DNA of 64,000 bases from contig JAHBVL010000001.1 of assembly GCA_019637585.1 (NCBI GenBank), positions 310,001 to 374,000 of the forward strand, written 5' to 3'. This document shows positions 39,325 to 51,045 of the stretch, piece by piece. The stretch is from Thermomicrobiales bacterium (GTDB lineage: Bacteria > Chloroflexota > Chloroflexia > Thermomicrobiales > UBA6265). Position 1 is the stretch's first letter, and every line of letters begins with the position of its first letter. The notes beneath the pieces are model-generated. The model ran no database searches. It was not told the origin of the DNA and saw nothing but the letters and a program-made list of their open reading frames with translations. Position numbers and translations under genes: made by a program.

Positions 39325-39873
39325 GTGGCGATTGCGATATATGGCGTGCCGGCAGCACCAGATTTGAGGGACCTCCAGAGCTTCAGTGCTTTTTATGACC
39401 AGGCGTTGCCTGTGGTCTACGGGTACTTCCTGCGCCGAACCGGCGGAGAGCCCGCACTGGCCGAAGATCTGACACAGGAAACCTTTCTGGCCGCCGTCAC
39501 GCAGATCGACCGGGGAACGCGGGTGGACGCACCCATGCCCTGGCTTATCGGTATCGCGCGACATCGCCTGATCGACCACTATCGAGCAACATCGCGGGCA
39601 GCCAACCGCGTTGTTTCCCTCGGAGAGTGGATCGACGACCAGCCAGACGGGCGCGACGACTTCGGACCGATTCTCGATCGGGCCATGGCAGCCGCCTCTC
39701 TCGACGCGATGCCAGCATCGCAGCGACTCGTTGTGGTTCTCCGCTATCTCGACGGACTCTCCGTGCCGGAGATCGCCAGCCAGATCGGCAAATCGGTCCA
39801 TGCCGTCGAGTCGCTCCTCGCGCGCGGCCGCGCAACGTTCAAACGTCATTATCTGGAGCACGGTCATGAGTGA
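39325..39873 (+). CDS. ECF RNA polymerase sigma factor (module 1)
   Basis: A 182-residue extracytoplasmic-function sigma factor. Region 2 is seen in YDQALPVVYGYFLRR and AEDLTQETFLAAV, where it contacts core polymerase and the -10 element. Region 4 is LRYLDGLSVPEIASQIGKSVHAVESLLARGRA, the -35-binding helix-turn-helix. AGGAG precedes the GTG at 39325. The stop overlaps the start of the PQQ-propeller membrane protein by 8 bases, the usual position of an anti-sigma gene. It is the most divergent of the three ECFs in the window. Confidence 0.95.
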   Translation: MAIAIYGVPAAPDLRDLQSFSAFYDQALPVVYGYFLRRTGGEPALAEDLTQETFLAAVTQIDRGTRVDAPMPWLIGIARHRLIDHYRATSRAANRVVSLGEWIDDQPDGRDDFGPILDRAMAAASLDAMPASQRLVVVLRYLDGLSVPEIASQIGKSVHAVESLLARGRATFKRHYLEHGHE

Positions 39874-41578
39874 GCGAGACCCCTTCGCCACGCTAGGAGA
39901 GCTAGTCGATCAGCCTGTTGTGCCGAACGCGCAATTCGCCAGCGATCTGAAGGCGCAGCTCATGAGCGAGTTGGCCGCAGGCAACCGCTTGCGGGAAAAG
40001 GAGCATGCCCTACCGATGGATACCGTTCTTCGACCACCAATAGTCTTGCTGCCGGAGCGCCCCAAGCGGACCCGGCGCATCGTCCTGCTCGAAATTGCCG
40101 CGGTTGCGGCCCTGCTGATCGGCATCGTCGCGACATATGCGAGCGGATGGTTTTCGAACGACCCGGAAGAGACGCCGGTGATTCCGGCGGCGGTCCTCCA
40201 GGAGGACTCTGACGCGACTCCGGTCGCCCCTGCTGTGGTACTGAACGACGAGCAGAACCCGGCTGCGGGCTGGGAGCTTGCGCTCCCGGCCGGCGAGAGC
40301 GTCGACTACGGCGGTATGGCAGCGGTGGACGGCACTGTCTATCGTCTGCTGGCGACGCCATCTTTTGTCGGAGTCGAAGCGGTCGATGGTCCTTCCGCAA
40401 CGGTTCTCTGGAGAGCCGAACGGCCCTGGAGCAACCATGGCATCGCCGCTGGCGATGGCGTGTTCTTCTTCTCCGGTCCGAGTGAAATCACCGCGCTGGA
40501 ACGAGAAGATGGAAGCGAGCGCTGGGTCACTGGCTGGGAAGAGGATCGCGCCGGGGTCTCCTTTATGCTGAGTGAAGGATGGCTCTACGTCTGGGATACG
40601 ACGGGAACACTGACGGCGATCGATACGGTCGACGGAGAGGTCCTCTGGGCAACAGGAACCGGAGACGACAGCTCGGCCCAGGTGGCCGGGGCCCCGGCGA
40701 TGACACCAGTTGCCGGCGACGGCTGGGTGGCGGTGGTGACCGGAGCGGGCAATCTGACGGTGTTCGACCGGAACCTGGGCGAGATCATCCAGATCGTCGC
40801 CGGATTCGATCCTGTCAACAGCCAACTCGCGGCACAGCCTCCGTTCCTTTTCGTCCTGGGCGGCGATCCTGAGCCTGTGGACGGTGCGCCCAACCTCCGC
40901 GGCGCCGGCGTGAACGCCGAAACCGGCGAGATCGTGTGGGAGATGGAGATTGGCGGTCCGCTCATTCCGCCAGTCGGCACGCACGAAGAGTATTTCGCCT
41001 TCATCGCGGACGGCGTTTGGTCTGCAACAGGTGGCAGCGGCTCGGCCAGCGGAGGGGAAGGAACAGCCTCGGTCACCGTTTCCATCGGCGGCAGCGACTC
41101 AGGACCGGCTGAAGTCCAGGGGAGCGTGTCCGAAGTCACGACCGAAGGGAGCCCGGTCTCAGAATCGGGCACGGCCATCGGTGCTTCCGCGGGTGGACAG
41201 GCCGCCGGCGGTGTCGAGTCCGACGATTCTCCGGCCTGGGGCGGCGAGCAACCCGCGGAGCTGACAGGCGGACGGTGGGTCGTTGGCGTCAACGCCGCAA
41301 CGGGGGAGATCGTGTGGCAGCGAGAGACGCAGGCCGACGGCTTTGCTGGACTGGCGACCCTGTACGGGAACGCCGGTGGGCTCGATGTGTACACCTCGGA
41401 CGGGCACGTGGTGGGAATCGCCAGGGATTCCGGCGCCATCGTCAATGATCCGGGTCCACAAGACCTCGACCGGTTGTTGCTCGATGTGATTGCGGACGGC
41501 TCGCCCCAACTTGGGTTCTTCGCCACGACGATCGATGGTTCTCTCATCTGGTTCGGTGCGCTGGATCACATGGGGTAG
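39866..41578 (+). CDS. single-pass membrane protein with PQQ-like beta-propeller (module 1; putative anti-sigma/sensor)
   Basis: A 570-residue protein. Residues 1-70 are a cytoplasmic segment with P20-N-A-Q-F-A-S-D-L-K-A-Q-L. A membrane helix spans about 71-93 (RIVLLEIAAVAALLIGIVAT). Outside, several repeats of the DG-x-V-x-W type (IDTVDGEVLWATGTG, VNAETGEIVWEMEIG, VNAATGEIVWQRETQ) form a PQQ/pyrroloquinoline-quinone-like beta-propeller. A Gly/Ser/Glu-rich low-complexity insert lies at about 390-460. No HxxxCxxC zinc anti-sigma motif is present. Overlap with the sigma gene suggests it holds the sigma factor at the membrane and senses an outside signal. Confidence 0.85.
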   Translation: MSERDPFATLGELVDQPVVPNAQFASDLKAQLMSELAAGNRLREKEHALPMDTVLRPPIVLLPERPKRTRRIVLLEIAAVAALLIGIVATYASGWFSNDPEETPVIPAAVLQEDSDATPVAPAVVLNDEQNPAAGWELALPAGESVDYGGMAAVDGTVYRLLATPSFVGVEAVDGPSATVLWRAERPWSNHGIAAGDGVFFFSGPSEITALEREDGSERWVTGWEEDRAGVSFMLSEGWLYVWDTTGTLTAIDTVDGEVLWATGTGDDSSAQVAGAPAMTPVAGDGWVAVVTGAGNLTVFDRNLGEIIQIVAGFDPVNSQLAAQPPFLFVLGGDPEPVDGAPNLRGAGVNAETGEIVWEMEIGGPLIPPVGTHEEYFAFIADGVWSATGGSGSASGGEGTASVTVSIGGSDSGPAEVQGSVSEVTTEGSPVSESGTAIGASAGGQAAGGVESDDSPAWGGEQPAELTGGRWVVGVNAATGEIVWQRETQADGFAGLATLYGNAGGLDVYTSDGHVVGIARDSGAIVNDPGPQDLDRLLLDVIADGSPQLGFFATTIDGSLIWFGALDHMG

Positions 41579-41610
41579 CGGCAACGAAGGAAAAAGGAAA
41601 CGTGGAAATG

Positions 41611-41640
41611 CGGTGCGGAGCATTGTCTCCGCACCGTTTT
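41611..41640 (+). terminator. intrinsic terminator after ECF/PQQ module 1
   Basis: CGGTGCGGAG (41611-41620) pairs perfectly with CTCCGCACCG (41627-41636) around the loop CATTGT and is followed by TTTTC. It lies 33 bases after the PQQ-propeller stop, a strong rho-independent terminator. Confidence 0.85.
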
Positions 41641-41649
41641 CTTGCGGAA

Positions 41650-42239
41650 GGAAACGCAGGCGTTTCCGCTACACCTGGTGGGGCGCTGATCTCGTGAAAC
41701 GGACGGCCCCAATGTTGTAGACGCAACGCCTGCGTTGCTGTCCTCAACCGCAGCGACGGCAGGGTTCCAGCGACGGCCGTCTCCCACGGGAGGAAACGCA
41801 GGCGTTTCCGCTACACCGGTGCGGCGATGATCTCGTGAAACGGACGACCCAATCGTGTAGGCGCAACGCCTGCGTTGCTGTCCTCGACCGTAGCGATGGC
41901 AGGGTTCCAGCGACGGCCGTCTCCCACGGGAGGAAACGCAGGCGTTTCCGCTACACCGGTGCGGCGATGATCTCGTGAAATGGACGGCCCAATCGTGTAG
42001 GCGCAACGCCTGCGTTGCTGTCCTCGACCGTAGCGATGGCAGGGTTCCAGCGACGGCCGTCTCCCACGGGAGGAAGCGCAGGCGTTTCCGCTACAGCGGA
42101 TGCGGCGATGATCTCGTGAAATGGACGGCCCCAATCGTGTAGACGCAACGCCTGCGTTGCTGTCCTCGACCGCAGCGATGGCCGGGTTCCAGCGACGGCC
42201 GTCTCCCACGGGAGGAAACGCAGGCGTTTCCGCTACACC
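41650..42239. repeat. 140-142 bp tandem repeat array with nested palindromes
   Basis: Units begin with GGAAACGCAGGCGTTTCC at 41650, 41792, 41932, 42072 (one base changed) and 42214, giving four full units plus a partial one. That 18-mer is a palindrome (8-bp arms). Each unit also holds GCAACGCCTGCGTTGC (for example 41863-41878), another palindrome. The two are reverse complements of each other at their cores (AACGCAGGCGTT and AACGCCTGCGTT), so each unit can fold into a larger stem. Reading frames through the array are artefacts of periodicity. The remaining stretch to 42337 holds nothing recognisable. Confidence 0.9.
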
Positions 42240-42337
42240 GCACTCGCTGGAAACGGCGTCGTTCACAATGCGATTTACCTGAACGGGCTTAGACGGGACT
42301 CGACTCCCATTGGATCGAACGATTCAGCACCATGCCC

Positions 42338-42769
42338 TCAATCTTGAAACTCCCAGGATTCGGCGTAAGGGAGCCGGTCCAGCGCACGATCGAACGTGGC
42401 AAGGGGAATCTGTTGCCGCTCAGCGCGGGCGACGATCAATGCATCGGCCATCGAAATTGCCGAATGTTGGCCGAAGAACTCAATGGCGCGCAGAAAGAGA
42501 CTCCGGTCGCCCCGGGCGAGTCTCAAGCCCGGCAGATTGACAAAGGTCGCAAGGTATTCCGCAGCGTCGATTCTTGACACGCGGTAAAGACGAGGTGAGG
42601 TCAGGACTGAGGCCACCTCATGGAGCACAACTTCGCTGATTGTTGCCTCAAGCTCACCGTTCCGGACTGAGTCGAGCAAAGTCGTCGACTGCCGATGCAA
42701 GCGGGCAAGATGTGGTTCAGGTTCCAGGATGAAATATCTCAGAAGGACGTTCGAATCGAGAGAGATCAT
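42338..42769 (-). CDS. VapC-type PIN domain toxin
   Basis: A 143-residue PIN-domain ribonuclease toxin. Acidic active-site residues are seen in MISLDSNVLLRY (D5), EVVLHEVASV (Glu), SMADALIVARAE (Asp) and ATFDRAL (Asp). These match the four-acid centre that binds Mg2+ and cuts tRNA or rRNA. The start overlaps the antitoxin stop by 4 bases (ATGA). It forms a VapBC pair located between the repeat array and the DUF6325-type gene. Confidence 0.92.
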   Translation of the reverse strand: MISLDSNVLLRYFILEPEPHLARLHRQSTTLLDSVRNGELEATISEVVLHEVASVLTSPRLYRVSRIDAAEYLATFVNLPGLRLARGDRSLFLRAIEFFGQHSAISMADALIVARAERQQIPLATFDRALDRLPYAESWEFQD

Positions 42770-43041
42770 TCGGCCATCAGCTCAGCAGTCTGTCTGGCGA
42801 AATCCTCAAGAATTGCTTCCTCTATCACCTCATCGAAGTCCCGATGCTCCATGCCGGGTGGCGTCGGAACGATTCCCTGAAGGTCTTCGAATGAGTATTT
42901 TCTCGGCCGAACTTCGACGCCTCCGGAGCTGTTCACCACAAACGTGACCTTGTCGCCGACATCCACGCCAAGCTGCTTGCGGATTTTCTTGGGGAGTGTG
43001 ACTTGGCCCTTGCTCGTGATCGTGCAGGTTGCAGAATGCAT
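42766..43041 (-). CDS. AbrB/MazE-type antitoxin (VapB)
   Basis: A 91-residue antitoxin with a swapped-hairpin AbrB DNA-binding N-terminus: CTITSKGQVTLPKKIRKQLGVDVGDKVTFVV. The C-terminal half, with SFEDLQGIVPTPPGMEHRDFD, would wrap the toxin. GAGGAGG lies 6 bases before ATG 43041, so the in-frame extension to 43152 is not used. It probably represses its own operon. It is partnered with the PIN toxin directly downstream. Confidence 0.92.
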   Translation of the reverse strand: MHSATCTITSKGQVTLPKKIRKQLGVDVGDKVTFVVNSSGGVEVRPRKYSFEDLQGIVPTPPGMEHRDFDEVIEEAILEDFARQTAELMAE

Positions 43042-43172
43042 CGTGACCTCCTCGCCTTGTTGACGTGCAACGAGTAAGGCAAGTTTACCATGGGCCTTAC
43101 CGGACCAGAACCAGTCGAGAAACGGGGGATGTTGAACCCTCCCGGGGATCAAATCCTCAGTCTCACCACCGA

Positions 43173-43595
43173 TCAGACTAACGAGTCGTTGAGCATCTGG
43201 TCGATGACGGCGCGGGGGATGCGCTTGTTCAGGACGACGACGCCGTCGGCTTCTCGGATGGCGATGGCAACCTTTCTGGCCCAGACATTCTCGAAGAGGA
43301 TGAGCGCGGCGGAGGTGTCTGGTTCGAGGCAGGGAACCAGGCGCAGGGCATCATCGTCGCAAAGCAATTCCTCATCGTCGAGATCGGATGTGTCGACAAA
43401 CGACGCAATCGTGTCGCCCATGTCGTCCAGCGAGATGACGAGCGCGGAGCCATCGGCGTGCTTCATCACGAACCGCATGTCGATGATCCGGACCAGGCCG
43501 GAATCGACGAGCGCGTTGATCTCTGTGGCCACGCCACTCGTGAATTCACTCCCCGGAAATCGAAAGATGACCAGCTCCACGGGTCCCAACGGCAT
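43173..43595 (-). CDS. DUF6325-type protein (copy 1)
   Basis: A 140-residue soluble protein: GPVELVIFRFPGSEFTSGVA at the N-terminus, then RIIDMRFVMKHADGS, ALILFENVWARKVAIAIREADG, and IPRAVIDQML at the C-terminus. The fold is likely a mixed alpha/beta one of the DUF1269/DUF6325 kind; the role is unknown. A paralogue with the same four blocks is at 50498-50932, at the other end of the sigma-module region. It is divergent from ECF module 2. Confidence 0.75.
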   Translation of the reverse strand: MPLGPVELVIFRFPGSEFTSGVATEINALVDSGLVRIIDMRFVMKHADGSALVISLDDMGDTIASFVDTSDLDDEELLCDDDALRLVPCLEPDTSAALILFENVWARKVAIAIREADGVVVLNKRIPRAVIDQMLNDSLV

Positions 43596-43651
43596 ACGGT
43601 CTCCTCCTGTCTGACAACACGTCCATATGGAGACACTCTACAGGGTGCGAG

Positions 43652-43660
43652 CGCTTTTGC
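43652..43660 (+). promoter_or_regulatory. candidate shared promoter element CGCTTTTGC upstream of module 2
   Basis: CGCTTTTGC at 43652-43660 lies 117 bases before the ECF module 2 start. CACTTTTGC is found at 47715-47723, 67 bases before module 3. ECF operons are often autoregulated, but two short matches are weak evidence. Confidence 0.2.
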
Positions 43661-43777
43661 GACAGGGTGCATAACATTTGCCGCCCCATCCTCGTTATCT
43701 TTCCCGGAATTACCGCCGCCTGACGTGCCATCTGCTCCCATCGAGCGCCATCACCGCTTCCTCAGCGGTATGCCGAT

Positions 43778-44380
43778 ATGACGACTGCCGAGTTCATCAG
43801 CACCCTGACCGAATCGGTGACGCGAGACGCAGCTGCCTCTGCTCCATTGGAGGGGTCTGATGATGAGCTGGTCGAGCGGGCGCGCCAGGATCCGGCAGCC
43901 TTTGCCTCACTCTATCAACGCCATGTCCGCTCGATCTATGCCTATTGTCATTCCCGGCTCGGCAACCGGGAGCTGGCCGAAGACGCCACCAGTCAGATTT
44001 TCACGAATGCGCTTTCCGGATTGGCCCGGTACCGATCGGGTTCGTTTCGCGGCTGGCTCTACGCCATCGCCCGCAATGTGGTGACCGATCAGCGGCGTCA
44101 GATGCCGTTCATCCCCGAAGAGGCGTTGCGCAATCCGGTTGCCGCCTCGGGTGCACCCGACAGCGCACTCCAGCAGACAGACAGCGATATCGATCTCCGC
44201 CTCTTGCTCGATCAGCTGACATCCGATCAGCGAGAGGTAGTCGAACTCCGTCTCGCCGGGCTCACCGGTATCGAGATCGCACAGGCACTTGGTAAACGTC
44301 ACGGCGCCGTCCGCGCCACGCAGTTCCGCGCGTATCAACGTCTCCGGGAAATCCTGGCAAACGAGGGAACCGAGTCATGA
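43778..44380 (+). CDS. ECF RNA polymerase sigma factor (module 2)
   Basis: A 200-residue ECF sigma factor. Region 2 is FASLYQRHVRSIYAYCHSRLG, then ELAEDATSQIFTNAL and WLYAIARNVVTDQRR. Region 4 is LDQLTSDQREVVELRLAGLTG with HGAVRATQFRAYQRLREIL as recognition helix. It is clearly closer to module 3 than to module 1 (shared AEDATSQ, VRA-QFRAYQRLR). Its stop overlaps the PQQ-propeller start by 4 bases. It probably transcribes genes for response to an extracytoplasmic signal. Confidence 0.95.
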   Translation: MTTAEFISTLTESVTRDAAASAPLEGSDDELVERARQDPAAFASLYQRHVRSIYAYCHSRLGNRELAEDATSQIFTNALSGLARYRSGSFRGWLYAIARNVVTDQRRQMPFIPEEALRNPVAASGAPDSALQQTDSDIDLRLLLDQLTSDQREVVELRLAGLTGIEIAQALGKRHGAVRATQFRAYQRLREILANEGTES

Positions 44381-47295
44381 ATGCACGACATCACTCCATC
44401 ACGTTCGACAACACCCTCGATTGCCTGCAATCAGGGCGGGCCGAGTCGTGTTCTGCCGAGGGGGAGTTGTCCGGTCTGGCAGCGACCGCCGCGACACTCG
44501 ATGCCCGGTACAGGAGCACCCGGGCCGAACCAGACAGCGCCTTCGTGCAGGGGTTGCAGACCCGGCTGATGGAGGGTGCTTCTACCCTACCGGCCCGGCC
44601 CGAGACATCGAGAGCAGGAAGGCCACGGCCACGGATACCGGTACTGGCGAACCTCAGTCGGGCCCAGGCCAGCGGTGGACGCTTCTTCGCCTATGTGAGT
44701 TCGGCGGTGGTGGTCGCGGCGATCGCCAGCGCCGCGTTGCTCATGCTCTGGCGCGCCGCCAATGACCCGTCGTCGACGACGATCGACGCGCCGACGATCG
44801 CCGGTCATCTGCCGGGGTTCGATACCGGCCAATCCGAGGGAGGGGCGCTGCTCTGGCAACTGGAGAATGCCGAGCAGGAGTTCATCCACTTCCGGACGGT
44901 GGCCACCTTTGGCGATGTCGTCTATCGAGTCATCGACACTCCGCTCGAATTCAACGGCATCGAGGCGATCGATGGCCGGACTGGTGACGTGCTTTGGCGT
45001 TCGAGTTTGTCGGTCTCGAGCTCAACCGAGATGAAAGCGGACAGCCGAGGTGTTTACGTTTTCGAGTTTTCCCGATTCGTCGATGATGAGGGGATGGGTC
45101 ACCTGACGGCACTCTCCGTCTTCTCGGGAGCGGAGATCTGGCAGACGGAACTTGCGATGCCGATGAACTGGTCGGTCGGCAATGACGCGATCTACGTCGT
45201 CGATCGTCATAACGTGACGACGGCAGTTAATGCCATACATGGGACAACACTGTGGACGTTCGACGCGCAGACGGGCGGATACGTTTTCGGTCCGGGTACG
45301 TCGATACCCGTGGTGGGAGCAGTGCCCTTTGCCTTCGGCGACACCGTTGTCACCTTTGCCAACGGTGGTTTGTTGATCGGTCTCGACAGGGAAACCGGAA
45401 TGGAGAAGTGGAGGAAGGATGGTTTCCACCCTTCTGCCACGCGTTTCGCCGCCGCTGGTGATGTGCTGACGACGATGACCTTCCAGGCTGGTGCGGATGC
45501 CGACGGTATCCTCGAAACCGACAGCAATGCTGTGGATTGGGAGGACGAAACGTGGCTCTTTATCGCCAGGGTATCGGCTATCGATCCTACGGACGGATCT
45601 GAGTTGTGGCATCGCGTCATCGCCTCCCAAGCGCTCGAGTTGGTCGCAACCGAAAGCGTTGTCGCATTCATCGGCAATGAGTTCATCGATTCGGCTCCCG
45701 GCAGCCCGACTCCCGACCCGAGCGAGCTTCAGGGCGTCTTGTTGGAAGCTCCTCCGCTTGGCGAAGCGCTGGACCGCGCCTCCGGATTTGATCCGGTGAG
45801 CGGCGAATTGCTCTGGACCGTCCATGCCGGGGAAACCTACTTCACCACCATGGCGACCTGGATACCGGCATCCGGCATGGGCGGCGGAATTGTCGCCCTG
45901 ACTGCCGAAGGCAGGATGCGACCGATCGGATTCTGGAGAGAAGGGGATCTTAGGGTCCCTGATGAGAAAGTGAATCGCTACCCGCAGCCTATCGCAGGGG
46001 ACTTCGGGTTCGTGGTGGTGCTGGAGAATGGGGATCTGGCTGGCGTCGCGGTGAACGAGCATCCCTCCGACCTGGCCAATGCCACACCAGTCGCGGAGAT
46101 CGCGGCGAGCGACTCATCATCATCCGTGCTCTGGACGTCGCCGGTTGAAAGCGAGGAGATATCCGATATCACGCTGATCGCGGTGAACGACGGTGCCGTG
46201 TTCCGATTCACCACGACATACGGCTCGGTCGAAAGCAATGCTATCGAAGCACTCGACGGACAGACTGCCGCGCGACTCTGGAAAGAGCCTGCGCCGTGGG
46301 CGCTCGTGCCGCCCGTCGCGGACGATGCCTACCTCTACTATGCGAGCTACTCCGGTCCCCACGAGGAGATGAAAATCGTTGCGGTCGATACGGCGACGGG
46401 TCAGGTAGCCTGGACGGTCTCGCCGAACCGCACCGTGATGGGATTGACTGCCTCGGACGGCATTCTTTACGCCGAAGTGTCGCCAAACACGCTGATGGCG
46501 ATTCGGGATGGCGAAATCCTCTGGGAGTCGGCCATCGATCCATACGTCGACCCTGTCTCCAGCAACGAGATCATGCTGAACATGCACGGCCCGGTGGTGG
46601 AAGATGGTTTGGTGCTAGGCATGGCCGCGAACGGCACGATCTCCGGGTTCGATTCTGTCAACGGAGAGCGGTTGTGGACCAGCGTGCGCTCTCCCGGGCC
46701 GGGGAGCGAGTATGCCGTTGCCGGCGACGTTCTGGTGCGGTTCCGGCCATTGCCGATCCTCACCTCGTTGAATGACCAGGGCACACCTGTGCCGGAGGCG
46801 CCTATTCGTTCCGAGATCACCGGAGCCGGCGTCGATGCTGCTGCCGAGACCCTCTGGCGGCATGAGATGGACGGCTATGCGTACCCAATCGGCGTCGTTG
46901 ACGACACGGTGTATTTCATCGAGTTCAGCATCGAATTCGCGCCGGCAACGCCCTACCCAACCGACGATCTCCGGGATGGCGCGACGGGCACCCTTTTCGC
47001 GCTCAACGCCCAGACTGGCGAGCTCAGAGTGATAGAGACCAGGACGGGAAGGGCGGCGTTCATGGCGGGAGCGGCCTGGTCACCTGAGCATGGCAGCACC
47101 CCACTCGTGATCGCTGGCTCAGTTGATGGCGTTGTGACACTCGTCGACGCCGCCAGCCAGACTGTCGTGGAAATGACTCAGGCTGGGCCGGCGGACAGCG
47201 CAATCGTCGATGTGCAGATCGGCAACGGAGTCGCTTATCTCCTGTTCGAGGATGGCTCGGTGGCCGCGATGCCGCTGGTGGACGACTCGCCGTAG
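44377..47295 (+). CDS. large single-pass membrane protein with PQQ-like beta-propellers (module 2; putative anti-sigma/sensor)
   Basis: A 972-residue protein. The cytoplasmic part (1-103) has the motif P52-D-S-A-F-V-Q-G-L-Q-T-R-L-M. A membrane helix is at about 104-125 (FFAYVSSAVVVAAIASAALLM). Outside there are two or more propellers with blades such as IEAIDGRTGDVLWRSS, VDTATGQVAWTVSPN and LNAQTGELRV. It is about twice as long as module 3, consistent with propeller duplication. No zinc-binding anti-sigma motif is present. It overlaps the ECF gene by 4 bases (ATGA). The stop codon lies inside a dispersed repeat. Confidence 0.85.
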   Translation: MNARHHSITFDNTLDCLQSGRAESCSAEGELSGLAATAATLDARYRSTRAEPDSAFVQGLQTRLMEGASTLPARPETSRAGRPRPRIPVLANLSRAQASGGRFFAYVSSAVVVAAIASAALLMLWRAANDPSSTTIDAPTIAGHLPGFDTGQSEGGALLWQLENAEQEFIHFRTVATFGDVVYRVIDTPLEFNGIEAIDGRTGDVLWRSSLSVSSSTEMKADSRGVYVFEFSRFVDDEGMGHLTALSVFSGAEIWQTELAMPMNWSVGNDAIYVVDRHNVTTAVNAIHGTTLWTFDAQTGGYVFGPGTSIPVVGAVPFAFGDTVVTFANGGLLIGLDRETGMEKWRKDGFHPSATRFAAAGDVLTTMTFQAGADADGILETDSNAVDWEDETWLFIARVSAIDPTDGSELWHRVIASQALELVATESVVAFIGNEFIDSAPGSPTPDPSELQGVLLEAPPLGEALDRASGFDPVSGELLWTVHAGETYFTTMATWIPASGMGGGIVALTAEGRMRPIGFWREGDLRVPDEKVNRYPQPIAGDFGFVVVLENGDLAGVAVNEHPSDLANATPVAEIAASDSSSSVLWTSPVESEEISDITLIAVNDGAVFRFTTTYGSVESNAIEALDGQTAARLWKEPAPWALVPPVADDAYLYYASYSGPHEEMKIVAVDTATGQVAWTVSPNRTVMGLTASDGILYAEVSPNTLMAIRDGEILWESAIDPYVDPVSSNEIMLNMHGPVVEDGLVLGMAANGTISGFDSVNGERLWTSVRSPGPGSEYAVAGDVLVRFRPLPILTSLNDQGTPVPEAPIRSEITGAGVDAAAETLWRHEMDGYAYPIGVVDDTVYFIEFSIEFAPATPYPTDDLRDGATGTLFALNAQTGELRVIETRTGRAAFMAGAAWSPEHGSTPLVIAGSVDGVVTLVDAASQTVVEMTQAGPADSAIVDVQIGNGVAYLLFEDGSVAAMPLVDDSP

Positions 47296-47700
47296 CGGCG
47301 GCGGCTTGTCCCCGCCGGTGGCGGAGTGGAGCGCCGGAGGCGTGGAACGGAGCCACAACCGCCGCATTCGCACACGGCGCCCTACCATGACATCGCGGTC
47401 AACGACGGCAATGTACGGCCCTCCGGGCCGTCCTTCGACTTCGCTCAGGACCGACCATAAGGGATCGCCGCCACGACGTTCGGCATCTCAACCCATCGCC
47501 AACGCGGCCGACCACCTCCGTAGCGGCGGCGGCTCGTTCCCGCCGGTGGCGGAGTGGAGCGCAACGAAGTGGAGCGGAACGGCGCCACAACCGCCGCACT
47601 CGCACACGGCGCCCATCCATGACATTGTGGTCAACGAAGGCAATGTACGGCCCTCCGGGCCGTCGGCGACCACAAGGGATCGCCGCTACGACGATCGTGA
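47293..47700. repeat. dispersed G+C-rich repeat, two copies (B and C)
   Basis: GTAGCGGCGGCGGCTTGTCC at 47294, continuing about 75 bases, is nearly identical to about 27988. A diverged copy (GTAGCGGCGGCGGCTCGTTC) is at 47519. Each is followed by a block with CACACGGCGCC and GTACGGCCCTCCGGGCCGTC, and then ACAAGGGATCGCCG (or ATAAGGG). The first copy contains the stop codon of the module 2 propeller gene. The nearly 500-base gap up to 47791 has no credible gene beyond these repeats. Confidence 0.75.
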
Positions 47701-47714
47701 GGATGGGGCCGTAA

Positions 47715-47723
47715 CACTTTTGC
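47715..47723 (+). promoter_or_regulatory. candidate shared promoter element CACTTTTGC upstream of module 3
   Basis: CACTTTTGC at 47715-47723 matches CGCTTTTGC before module 2 in eight of nine positions. It lies 67 bases before the sigma start, in non-repeat sequence. This is weak evidence for a common autoregulated promoter. Confidence 0.2.
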
Positions 47724-47790
47724 CCTCTGTTTCGTTCTGACTATCTGACTGCGCGGTTGCCCAAACGCAAGTGATGCGTGAAGGAGGGAC

Positions 47791-48384
47791 ATGGCGACGT
47801 CGGTGAGCGATTCACGCGAGAGCGATGTCCAGCAGGGATGTGCTTCGGCGTCCGATGACGAGACGCTCGTGGAGCGCGCCCGCCACGATCCGGCGGCATT
47901 CGCGATGCTCTACCAAGCCTACGTGCGGCCGGTTCACGCCTTTTGCTATCGCCGTCTGGGGACGCGTGAGGCGGCGGAAGATGCCACGAGTCAGGTGTTC
48001 GTCAATGCTCTCGCCCATCTTGGCGAATTCGAGTCGGGCTCTTTTCGTGCCTGGCTCTTCACCATCGCTCGTCATGTGGTCATCGACGCATTGCGGAAAC
48101 CCTTGTCCACGCTGTTGGCCAACGCAGACGGCGTCGTGGACGGCGCCCAACGACCGGAAGAAGCGGCGTTGGTGGCCGAAAGTGATCGTCGCGTGCGCCG
48201 GATGCTCGATCAGCTCACCTCCGAGCAACGCGACATCGTGTTGCTTCGTCTGGCCGGATTGAACGGAGCCGAAATCGCCCAGGTGCTGGGGCGGAGTCAT
48301 GGATCCGTGCGCGCTGCGCAGTTTCGGGCCTATCAGCGCCTTCGCACCATCGTCGCCGAAACAGGAGCACCGTCAAATGAATGA
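47791..48384 (+). CDS. ECF RNA polymerase sigma factor (module 3)
   Basis: A 197-residue ECF sigma factor closely related to module 2: FAMLYQAYVRPVHAFCYRRLG and AAEDATSQVFVNAL (region 2), WLFTIARHVVIDALR, then LDQLTSEQRDIVLLRLAGLNG and HGSVRAAQFRAYQRLR (region 4). AAGGAGGG precedes the ATG. The stop overlaps the downstream PQQ-propeller start by 8 bases. The pair of similar sigma factors points to duplication of a whole module. Confidence 0.95.
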   Translation: MATSVSDSRESDVQQGCASASDDETLVERARHDPAAFAMLYQAYVRPVHAFCYRRLGTREAAEDATSQVFVNALAHLGEFESGSFRAWLFTIARHVVIDALRKPLSTLLANADGVVDGAQRPEEAALVAESDRRVRRMLDQLTSEQRDIVLLRLAGLNGAEIAQVLGRSHGSVRAAQFRAYQRLRTIVAETGAPSNE

Positions 48385-50020
48385 CACCCAGGAGCGATTC
48401 ACCACGCTGGACATGGCACTCGACCAATTGGAGAACAGGGAAGCTTCGCGGCCGGTACCCGAGAGAGAGATCGACGAGCTGCTGGCGGCGGCGCGGGAAT
48501 TCGGGGTTGTGGCCGCGAGCGGTGGACAGGAGCCGCATGAGGATTTTGTGCGACGGCTCGAGGCACAACTGGCACCCAGCCCGCTGGCTCGTTCCGTCCT
48601 ACATTCTCAAGCCCTGCCGGAGCCTCGCCAGCCTGGCGTCCATGGTGGAGGGGAACATGCCGTTCAGTGGAGACACATGCGCGTTTTCCCCTTGGTGGCT
48701 GCTCTCTTGGTGATCGCCATGCTTCTCGGAGCCGTGGCCGCCATCACGCAGATGCGATCGCCAGACGATTTTCCAACGATGATCCCGGCACCGGTTTTCG
48801 CCGGCAGTAGTTTTCTTTGGGAGATACCTCTCACCAGCCGTTCCGGCGCACCTCAGAGCGTGACCACAGTAGAGGGTCGAGACACGATTTTCCGGTTTCG
48901 AAATGATGCGGACTTTCTCGGCATCGAAGCGATCGATGGAATAACTGGAGAGACGCTATGGAGCAGGTCGGCCTATGGCAATGAGGAATCACTCCGCACG
49001 GACAGGTACGGCGTCTACTATGTCGGATTCGGAGAAACCACGCGGGAAGGCACCGGAAGCATCGTCGTCGCGCTGTCGCCTGAAACAGGAGAGGAACTCT
49101 GGCGGGTCGAGATCGATCGCTATCCGATGGAATCGTCGATTCGAGATGGCAGACTCTACATTCGTCATAGCGAAGGATTCGTTACCGCGATCGACACGCA
49201 AGACGGCTCCGTGCTGTGGATAGCCCAACCATTAGGAAACACCACGTGTGGTGGGTTCTCCCAATCGCAGAGTGCGCACCCCTCCGTTCTAGACGACGCT
49301 GTCGTCGTTCTTGACTGCGATGGCTCGCTGGTGGGTCTCGATCCCTCAAGTGGCGCCGAGCAATGGCGTCGGTCGGGTTTCAACGCAGTCGCCACGCTCC
49401 TCACCCCAATAGACAACACGCTCATCGTGATGACTGGTTATCGATGGGAAGGCATGACCGGAAGTCCGGGCGTCGTTGCAGATGACGATCTCGAAACACT
49501 CCACGGCGCGATGTTTGCGGTCTACCGCGTGGTCGCGCTAAACGGCTCAGATGGAGAAGTGCTCTGGGAACGATATGTAGCGGCAAGACCTCAATACCCG
49601 GTGGCGACCGCCACGACCTTCGCCATCATCGGCGCAGAGATCAATGCGGCGGATCGAGACCTCGCGGCGCTTCCCGCCACGCCAACGCCCGATTGGCAGG
49701 GAACGATTGTCGCCCCGGGGGTCGAGAACCATGTGATGGGGTTCGATCTGAGAAGCGGCGAATTGCTCTGGGAAGAAACGCTGGAGGATGACGCCATCTA
49801 CCGCACATTGAGCGCCTGGAGCACCGAAACAGGGAGCGGCATCGCGGCCACGACCTCGAACTTCGACATCATTCAGGTTGGTCCCTGGGAAGGAGGGGCG
49901 ATCGTCGATCCCGGCGACCGGTTCCTCATCGTCGAGCCGCCGCTCGCAGGTGATTTCGGCTTCGTTGCTGAGGCGATCGATGGCCGGCTGGTGGGGATTG
50001 AAGTTGAGCGGAATCCGTAG
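48377..50020 (+). CDS. single-pass membrane protein with PQQ-like beta-propeller (module 3; putative anti-sigma/sensor)
   Basis: A 547-residue protein. The cytoplasmic N-terminus (1-102) has the motif P53-H-E-D-F-V-R-R-L-E-A-Q-L-A. The membrane helix is at about 103-124 (VFPLVAALLVIAMLLGAVAAI). Outside blades include IEAIDGITGETLWSRS, LSPETGEELWRVEID, IDTQDGSVLWIAQP and FDLRSGELLWEETLE. Three Cys are outside or near the membrane. It overlaps the sigma gene by 8 bases. A lack of HxxxCxxC and the shared P-x3-F-V/A-x2-L-x-A/T-Q/R-L segment suggest a different sigma-binding element. Confidence 0.85.
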   Translation: MNDTQERFTTLDMALDQLENREASRPVPEREIDELLAAAREFGVVAASGGQEPHEDFVRRLEAQLAPSPLARSVLHSQALPEPRQPGVHGGGEHAVQWRHMRVFPLVAALLVIAMLLGAVAAITQMRSPDDFPTMIPAPVFAGSSFLWEIPLTSRSGAPQSVTTVEGRDTIFRFRNDADFLGIEAIDGITGETLWSRSAYGNEESLRTDRYGVYYVGFGETTREGTGSIVVALSPETGEELWRVEIDRYPMESSIRDGRLYIRHSEGFVTAIDTQDGSVLWIAQPLGNTTCGGFSQSQSAHPSVLDDAVVVLDCDGSLVGLDPSSGAEQWRRSGFNAVATLLTPIDNTLIVMTGYRWEGMTGSPGVVADDDLETLHGAMFAVYRVVALNGSDGEVLWERYVAARPQYPVATATTFAIIGAEINAADRDLAALPATPTPDWQGTIVAPGVENHVMGFDLRSGELLWEETLEDDAIYRTLSAWSTETGSGIAATTSNFDIIQVGPWEGGAIVDPGDRFLIVEPPLAGDFGFVAEAIDGRLVGIEVERNP

Positions 50021-50114: not shown

Positions 50115-50453
50115 CTACACCCCGAGCAGCTTCGACTTCGCGGCCTCGAACTGCTCGTCCGACAGCAACCCCTGCTCTTTCATCTGGGCGAGTTGCTGGA
50201 GCTGGGCCATGACGTCGGCGCCACCGGCCGGCGCGGCCGCGGCCGTTGCCTGCTGGGCTTGCATGGTGGCCATCTGAGCCTGCATATCGTCCAGCTGTTG
50301 CTGATTTGCGGCGGCCGCCGCTTGCTGCTGGGCGCCCGCCTGGTTGGAATATCGTTGCGCTTGCCGGTGGGTGACGGCATTGGCCGTACCGGCCACCACA
50401 GCTGTGGTGGCCATCGTGCTCACGATTCCGCGTCCTCCGCGTCGTCGCATCAT
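50115..50453 (-). CDS. SHOCT domain protein
   Basis: A 112-residue protein. A short basic N-terminus (MMRRRGGRGIV) and a weakly hydrophobic patch (STMATTAVVAGTANAV) are followed by a Gln/Ala-rich coiled region. The C-terminal SHOCT domain is LQQLAQMKEQGLLSDEQFEAAKSKLL. SHOCT domains mediate oligomerisation. The arrangement resembles the SHOCT tail of the membrane protein at 19743-21062. It is downstream of the DUF6325-type gene on the same strand with a 44-base gap, probably one operon. Confidence 0.85.
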   Translation of the reverse strand: MMRRRGGRGIVSTMATTAVVAGTANAVTHRQAQRYSNQAGAQQQAAAAANQQQLDDMQAQMATMQAQQATAAAAPAGGADVMAQLQQLAQMKEQGLLSDEQFEAAKSKLLGV

Positions 50454-50497: not shown

Positions 50498-50932
50498 CTA
50501 GCCCAGGAGCTCCTGGGCCGCTTCCGCCAGAACTTCATCGATAACCGCCCGGGGAATTCGCTCGTTCAGCAGGACTTCGCCATTGGCGTTGCGCACGGCT
50601 GTGGCAAAGCGAGCCGCCCACGCATTCTCGAACAGAATCATGATCGCCGAGGAGTTGGGCTCCAACGCCTCGCCGATATACTCGCCGTCCGACATCGACA
50701 GCAGCTCATCGTCGTGCTGCGAAATCGGGGCATACACGGAAATCACCGCTTCGGAAAGACTCTCCAGCTCGACAACGCCCACCACCCCATCGACATCCTT
50801 GATGACGAAGAGGAGATCGATGATCCGGACGGTGCCGTTGGCGATCAAATCTTCCAATGCCGGCGCGATCTCCCCGGTGAATTCATTGCCGGGGAACTTG
50901 ATGATCACCAGCTCGACAGGTCCATAGGCCAT
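50498..50932 (-). CDS. DUF6325-type protein (copy 2)
   Basis: A 144-residue protein with GPVELVIIKFPGNEFTGEIA, VRIIDLLFVIKDVDGVVG, AIMILFENAWAARFATAVRNANG and IPRAVIDEVLAEAAQELLG, all aligned with copy 1 at 43173-43595. GGAG lies about 9 bases before ATG 50932, so the frame extension to 51022 is rejected. It is paired with a SHOCT gene, a combination that may assemble into a larger complex. The function is unknown. Confidence 0.78.
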   Translation of the reverse strand: MAYGPVELVIIKFPGNEFTGEIAPALEDLIANGTVRIIDLLFVIKDVDGVVGVVELESLSEAVISVYAPISQHDDELLSMSDGEYIGEALEPNSSAIMILFENAWAARFATAVRNANGEVLLNERIPRAVIDEVLAEAAQELLG

Positions 50933-51045
50933 AGCGCCAATCTCCACATCTCGATGACAGCCGTCATGGAATCCGGGCGGATTCCCTCTTCCTGATCGTA
51001 CCAACCCGGCGGTCTGCTGCAATACCGCAAAAGTTGTATGGCGGA

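Follow-up and report, generated by a model that had tools for sequence, protein, structure and literature searches.

Overlapping ECF sigma factor and membrane-propeller genes in a Thermomicrobiales bacterium: candidate sigma/anti-sigma pairs with exchangeable outside sensors

Many paralogous pairs of the sigma factor SigI and its anti-sigma factor RsgI are encoded in the genome of Clostridium thermocellum, each RsgI combining an N-terminal cytoplasmic inhibitor domain, one transmembrane (TM) segment and an outer sensor that diverges between pairs (PMC12203970). In Streptomyces, the sigma factor BldN is inhibited by RsbN, a membrane-bound, three-helix protein that became the founding example of class III anti-sigma factors (PMC8103513, PMC7406223), whilst groups of class I anti-sigma factors (RseA, RsiW and the zinc type) are reported to keep their sensor domains (PMC7406223). 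The stretch of DNA analysed here, a 64-kb window of a Thermomicrobiales genome (contig JAHBVL010000001.1, positions 310,001 to 374,000), contains three modules, in each of which the gene for an extracytoplasmic function (ECF) sigma factor overlaps the gene for a membrane protein with an outside propeller.

Judged from their sequence, these modules are probably pairs of an ECF sigma factor and its anti-sigma factor in which the outside sensor can be exchanged; they would work in the manner of SigI/RsgI, the closest known arrangement (PMC12203970). Gene position, a single TM segment with the N-terminus inside and co-variation with the sigma factor also recall class I anti-sigma factors, and BldN is the best match of the sigma factors in the PDB. 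An outside propeller leading through one TM segment to a cytoplasmic signalling part is likewise the build of the Ser/Thr kinases AfsK and PknD (PknD: PMC3322341), and the module 3 partner (P0006) gives a weak match to the AfsK model; the output here, however, would be a sigma factor and not a kinase. Of solved structures, BamB comes nearest to the fold seen in the module 3 propeller; it is, however, a lipoprotein that functions in outer-membrane assembly, whereas the propeller studied here is attached to a TM segment and a cytoplasmic, sigma-linked module.

The three gene pairs and their proteins

All three pairs lie on the forward strand. In module 1 the sigma gene (39325..39873, GTG start, 182 amino acids) overlaps by 8 bp a partner gene (39866..41578) encoding 570 residues with one PQQ_2/BamB-like propeller; in module 2 the overlap is 4 bp, between a sigma gene for 200 amino acids (43778..44380) and a partner gene for 972 (44377..47295) with two such propellers in tandem; and in module 3 it is again 8 bp, between a sigma gene for 197 amino acids (47791..48384) and a partner gene for 547 (48377..50020), the BamB-like propeller of which spans residues ~146-541. 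The overlaps and partner lengths agree with the first-pass annotation of this DNA, which had also described the partners as single-pass membrane proteins with an extracytoplasmic propeller, and this too was recovered. Each partner has a single strong hydrophobic segment, at residues 72-90 (40079-40135), 107-125 (44695-44751) and 106-124, respectively, and PQQ_2 matches (Pfam; E 1.3e-14, 3.8e-34 and 3.5e-24). Lysine and arginine residues before the TM segment outnumber those after it in 71 of the 81 partners analysed across the family, which places the N-terminus inside and the outer domain outside the cytoplasm.

The AlphaFold model of the module 3 partner (mean predicted local distance difference test score, pLDDT, 71) contains helices at residues 5-20, 29-47 and 55-65 (48389-48571), a TM helix at 97-124 (48665-48748) and the propeller from residue ~146; the three N-terminal helices are predicted at modest confidence, and are predicted in one further protein (L083) as well. 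Tetrathionate hydrolase follows BamB as the second closest solved structure of this propeller. P0004 and P0006 score only 32 and 37 bits against a cut-off of 480 for PQQ-dependent dehydrogenases, and "PQQ" therefore denotes the repeat type here and not a cofactor. The propellers thus resemble BamB, show no features of PQQ-dependent enzymes and are probably cofactor-free.

The three sigma factors exceed the Pfam cut-offs for Sigma70_r2 and Sigma70_r4 and, at ~180-200 amino acids, consist of regions 2 and 4 only, as expected of ECF sigma factors. Their match to BldN is ahead of all others by a wide margin (115 bits; runner-up 88), the best match of sigma 3 being chain A of 6dxo, and sigma 2 and sigma 3 can be called BldN-like; all three remain below the cut-off of 206 for the BldN family TIGR02952, sigma 2 scoring 108 bits, sigma 3 112 and sigma 1 64. 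The clade may already hold an ECF group number. Sigma 2 and sigma 3 are 56% identical, whereas sigma 1 shares 29% with sigma 3 and sits on a very long branch of the sigma tree, so that module 1 is a divergent lineage and not closely copied from either of the others. The proposal in the first-pass annotation that the unit was duplicated as a whole fits modules 2 and 3, since their sigma factors fall in one starred (well-supported) clade and their propellers are related, but extends neither to module 1 nor to the wider family, in which sensors have been swapped.

A cytoplasmic module that accompanies the sigma genes

The pairs in the window are not an accident of this locus, as evidenced by three more overlapping sigma/propeller pairs in the same genome (assembly of 3.94 Mb, 96.6% complete) and by a comparable array of three modules in a genome from another genus (G053), where the sigma 1 orthologue is 70% identical. 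The additional propeller pairs (L001, L004 and L007) overlap by 4, 11 and 4 bp and bring the total in this genome to six, and with a further six of the same build, carrying NHL propellers (L048, L049), cupredoxin domains (L043, L047) or no Pfam match (L040, L042), there are at least 12. PQQ-type genes number 10 in this genome, four of them not beside a sigma gene.

A profile of the six sigma factors was searched against 61 genomes from the order (Thermomicrobiales, by the named loci), many of which are fragmented metagenome assemblies, with scores above ~140 bits defining the clade. The DNA downstream was read for 88 sigma genes, the start of each partner being chosen by script as the one nearest the sigma stop codon. 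An overlapping downstream partner was present for 83 of the 88 (overlap 1-26 bp; 4 bp in 37, 8 bp in 22, 14 bp in 10, 11 bp in 7 and other lengths in 7), the remaining 5 lying at contig ends, probable frameshifts or gaps, and nearly all partners have one TM segment near residue 100. The co-conservation on which the first-pass annotation had staked its proposal therefore holds across genera. Among the loci of the family that have names, the source assemblies are from Sphaerobacter, Thermomicrobiales and other Chloroflexota.

What the partners have in common is a module of ~60 residues at their start, with the approximate pattern LDxxWDxLxxG...DPxLAxxVRxLHxL...PxPDPAFxxRLxxxLM, which is encoded downstream of sigma genes regardless of the type of outside domain; in the module 2 partner it is encoded at ~44401-44589 (E 1.0e-10). 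A profile of this module alone, run over 120 genomes of the class, gave 61 matches in 23 genomes, 60 of which are directly 3' of an ECF sigma gene and the other at the start of a contig. Among the 15 matches outside the training rows, a sigma gene was present for 14, and in a scan of the phylum (201 genomes) the module was found in 12 other genomes, with a sigma gene directly 5' in all 11 loci fetched. Since the module scarcely occurs except immediately downstream of ECF sigma genes, its role is likely to concern the sigma factor, and this is the strongest evidence obtained here. The four PQQ-type genes without an adjacent sigma gene gave no match to the module profile. The anti-sigma gene position noted in the first-pass annotation is thus matched by direct co-encoding and by a conserved N-terminal module whose variation follows that of the sigma factor.

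The module 1 partner departs from this pattern, with a short cytoplasmic N-terminus containing a PNAQFASDLKAQL motif; most of the module is missing, and a stretch resembling helix 3 is kept and is well conserved in the orthologue encoded in G053, the N-terminus of which is conserved also. In a partner from the same sigma clade in G007 (L078:893-1468, - strand), the module is followed by a glyoxalase/dioxygenase-type domain without a TM segment, a possible soluble, cytoplasmic version of the sensor. A candidate natural fusion of sigma and anti-sigma factor (L083:173-2505, + strand; = L134, G002) was rejected: one frame of 775 codons holds the sigma factor and the N-terminal module only, and a frameshift, in the sequence or the assembly, is likely because a TM segment and Kelch-like repeats lie in two other frames. 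This locus was used solely as a single chain for folding, and fold comparison of the chain matched the sigma domains only, with low template modelling scores (TM-scores) over the full chain, which is uninformative on the interface.

Exchange of outside domains and a promoter-like motif

Relatives carry outside domains of several kinds, among them PQQ/BamB propellers, NHL and other propellers, cupredoxins, cupins and a sortase. The sortase follows the N-terminal module and a TM segment in G038 (L120:1741-4143, - strand) and is possibly an enzyme-like outer domain on an anti-sigma candidate. Propellers of the PQQ/BamB type, labelled from the outside parts only, occur in ~15 of the 81 partners. 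Pairs of a sigma factor and a PQQ propeller, put forward as the unit in the first-pass annotation, are accordingly real, but the defining unit is broader, comprising sigma factor, N-terminal module, TM segment and a variable outside domain. When the PQQ-propeller label is mapped on a tree of the sigma factors from 81 pairs, 11 changes are required, at least 4 of these being forced by starred branches; for example, the sigma factors of two propeller-bearing pairs, L007 and L004, group with those of the cupredoxin-bearing pairs L047 and L043, respectively. Outside domains have thus been exchanged repeatedly. Similarity between sigma factors is correlated with that of the N-terminal part (Spearman rho 0.41; 0 of 1000 shuffles) and far less with that of the outside part (0.10).

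ECF promoters have AAC and CGT elements. The pattern TAACA-N16-CGTT has two matches in the window where 0.05 are expected, and these lie only 5' of sigma 2 (43672..43696, +, 82 bp upstream) and sigma 3 (47712..47736, +, 55 bp upstream). L054, L055, L057 and the two modules of L086 likewise have this motif ahead of their sigma genes; together with sigma 2 and sigma 3, these sigma factors make up the entire starred clade of seven members. The motif follows the sigma factor and not the sensor, as L054, L055 and L057 do not have this type of propeller. The motif fits an ECF promoter and autoregulation. Genome-wide there are three matches, compared with nine for a reversed control pattern, and the third, inside pst transport genes, was taken as chance and not as a target. 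Another sigma subclade has a different motif, GTTAC-N15-GCGT, and this was found before several sigma genes in tandem sigma/anti-sigma candidate pairs of G058 and G059 (L112, L115-L118).

Between the modules, a repeat of 174 nt is present four times at a spacing of 140 nt (41645-42240), with inverted repeats, and separates module 1 from a PIN/MazE-type toxin-antitoxin pair (42338-43152). A second intergenic duplication (47290-47697), of units of 94 nt and 45 nt ~230 nt apart, is immediately 5' of the sigma 3 promoter motif. Modules 2 and 3 are bracketed on the opposite strand by two DUF6325 genes (43173-43595 and 50498-51022, both -), the second of which adjoins a SHOCT-domain gene (50115-50453).

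Proposed mechanism and competing explanations

From the gene overlap, co-conservation, topology, common module, sensor swapping and motif seen in the sequence, we infer binding, inhibition and release of the sigma factor, autoregulation, and a ligand. Each ECF sigma factor would be paired with a dedicated membrane-bound anti-sigma factor, the cytoplasmic N-terminal module of which (mostly three predicted helices, with no zinc site) would bind the sigma factor and keep it at the membrane, whilst one TM helix would connect this module to the outside sensor, here a BamB-like propeller. An outside ligand, protein or fault would then bring about release of the sigma factor, through a change of shape or intramembrane proteolysis; proteins of the site-2-protease family are encoded in this genome, and likewise in all control genomes, which allows regulated proteolysis but does not demonstrate it. 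Once freed, sigma 2 and sigma 3 would transcribe their own operons from TAACA-N16-CGTT, and probably not many genes besides. With the core of sigma factor and N-terminal module conserved, exchange of the outside domain would give the family its different inputs. As to the sensing of cell-wall state suggested in the first-pass annotation, no tie between the propellers and the cell wall emerged.

Several results weigh against this proposal. Neither a Pfam model matching the N-terminal module nor a known anti-sigma domain was found among the 58 N-termini scanned, and two profiles yielded no credible match to the module in the PDB and no RsbN chain at E<=10. The module 1 partner has only its short N-terminus, and the strict scan of the genome for TAACA-N16-CGTT gave no target gene beyond the modules' own operons. 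With plain identity the contrast between N-terminal and outside parts is smaller (Pearson correlation coefficient, PCC, 0.54 vs 0.40), and shared inheritance alone could yield part of the correlation between sigma factor and N-terminal part. The lack of a match to known anti-sigma domains would also suit a partner acting as a positive co-factor or membrane anchor, with the sigma factor active only when the propeller protein relays a signal, and overlap, co-conservation and topology would be expected to look alike in that case; this is nevertheless unlikely given that membrane partners beside ECF sigma genes are usually inhibitors and that BldN, the nearest sigma factor with a structure, has a membrane-bound inhibitor (PMC8103513). 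Less likely still is that the propeller proteins are effectors, in BamB-like envelope assembly or adhesion, and mere operon-mates of the sigma factors. Their closest structures are indeed those of an assembly factor and other PQQ_2 genes of the genome have no sigma gene beside them, but those free-standing genes have no match to the N-terminal module, and it is this cytoplasmic part that the partners share whatever their outside domain.

The preferred reading, of sigma/anti-sigma pairs, may also be correct without being new, if the clade falls within an ECF group that has been classified before and its anti-sigma factor is a divergent one of class I or class III, poorly annotated in mostly uncultured genomes. 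Genes for class I anti-sigma factors are reported to lie near 72% of Chloroflexi ECF genes (PMC7406223), and this reading is a real possibility, though less likely than not. The zinc motif HxxxCxxC, by which class I zinc anti-sigma (ZAS) proteins are recognised, is absent from all 81 partners, no Pfam domain matches, and sensors vary inside one sigma clade where class I groups are reported to keep theirs (PMC7406223). In contrast to SigI/RsgI, SigI is no ECF sigma factor of this clade, the RsgI N-terminal domain did not reach even an E-value of 1 among the Pfam matches of the 58 N-termini, and the autocleaved periplasmic domain of RsgI is not seen, the outer domains being propellers, cupredoxins, cupins, a sortase and others. 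BldN/RsbN differs in that the sigma factors here are below the BldN-family cut-off and the N-terminal module has no detectable RsbN match. On these comparisons the family would seem to work like the RsgI and RsbN systems and to belong to neither. A literature search, in which the 2021 ECF classification was not covered, returned no relevant paper on propeller anti-sigma factors.

More tentatively, at a little short of even chances, the family could represent an undescribed class of ECF anti-sigma factor, with a small, zinc-free sigma-binding module spread across Chloroflexota, its core kept and its sensor freely exchanged, equipping each genome of a mostly uncultured lineage with at least a dozen envelope sensors that act in one step. 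If the sigma/anti-sigma reading is right, ECF sigma factors would here have a naturally occurring set of plug-in sensors, in which one conserved sigma-linked module serves many outside domains, and the principle by which RsgI serves SigI would be realised in an unrelated family. The motif offers a testable promoter for two of the systems, and sensor type need not track sigma lineage, contrary to the rule reported for class I groups (PMC7406223). The short, unannotated N-terminal module would further allow many "hypothetical" membrane proteins of Chloroflexota to be annotated as candidate anti-sigma factors.

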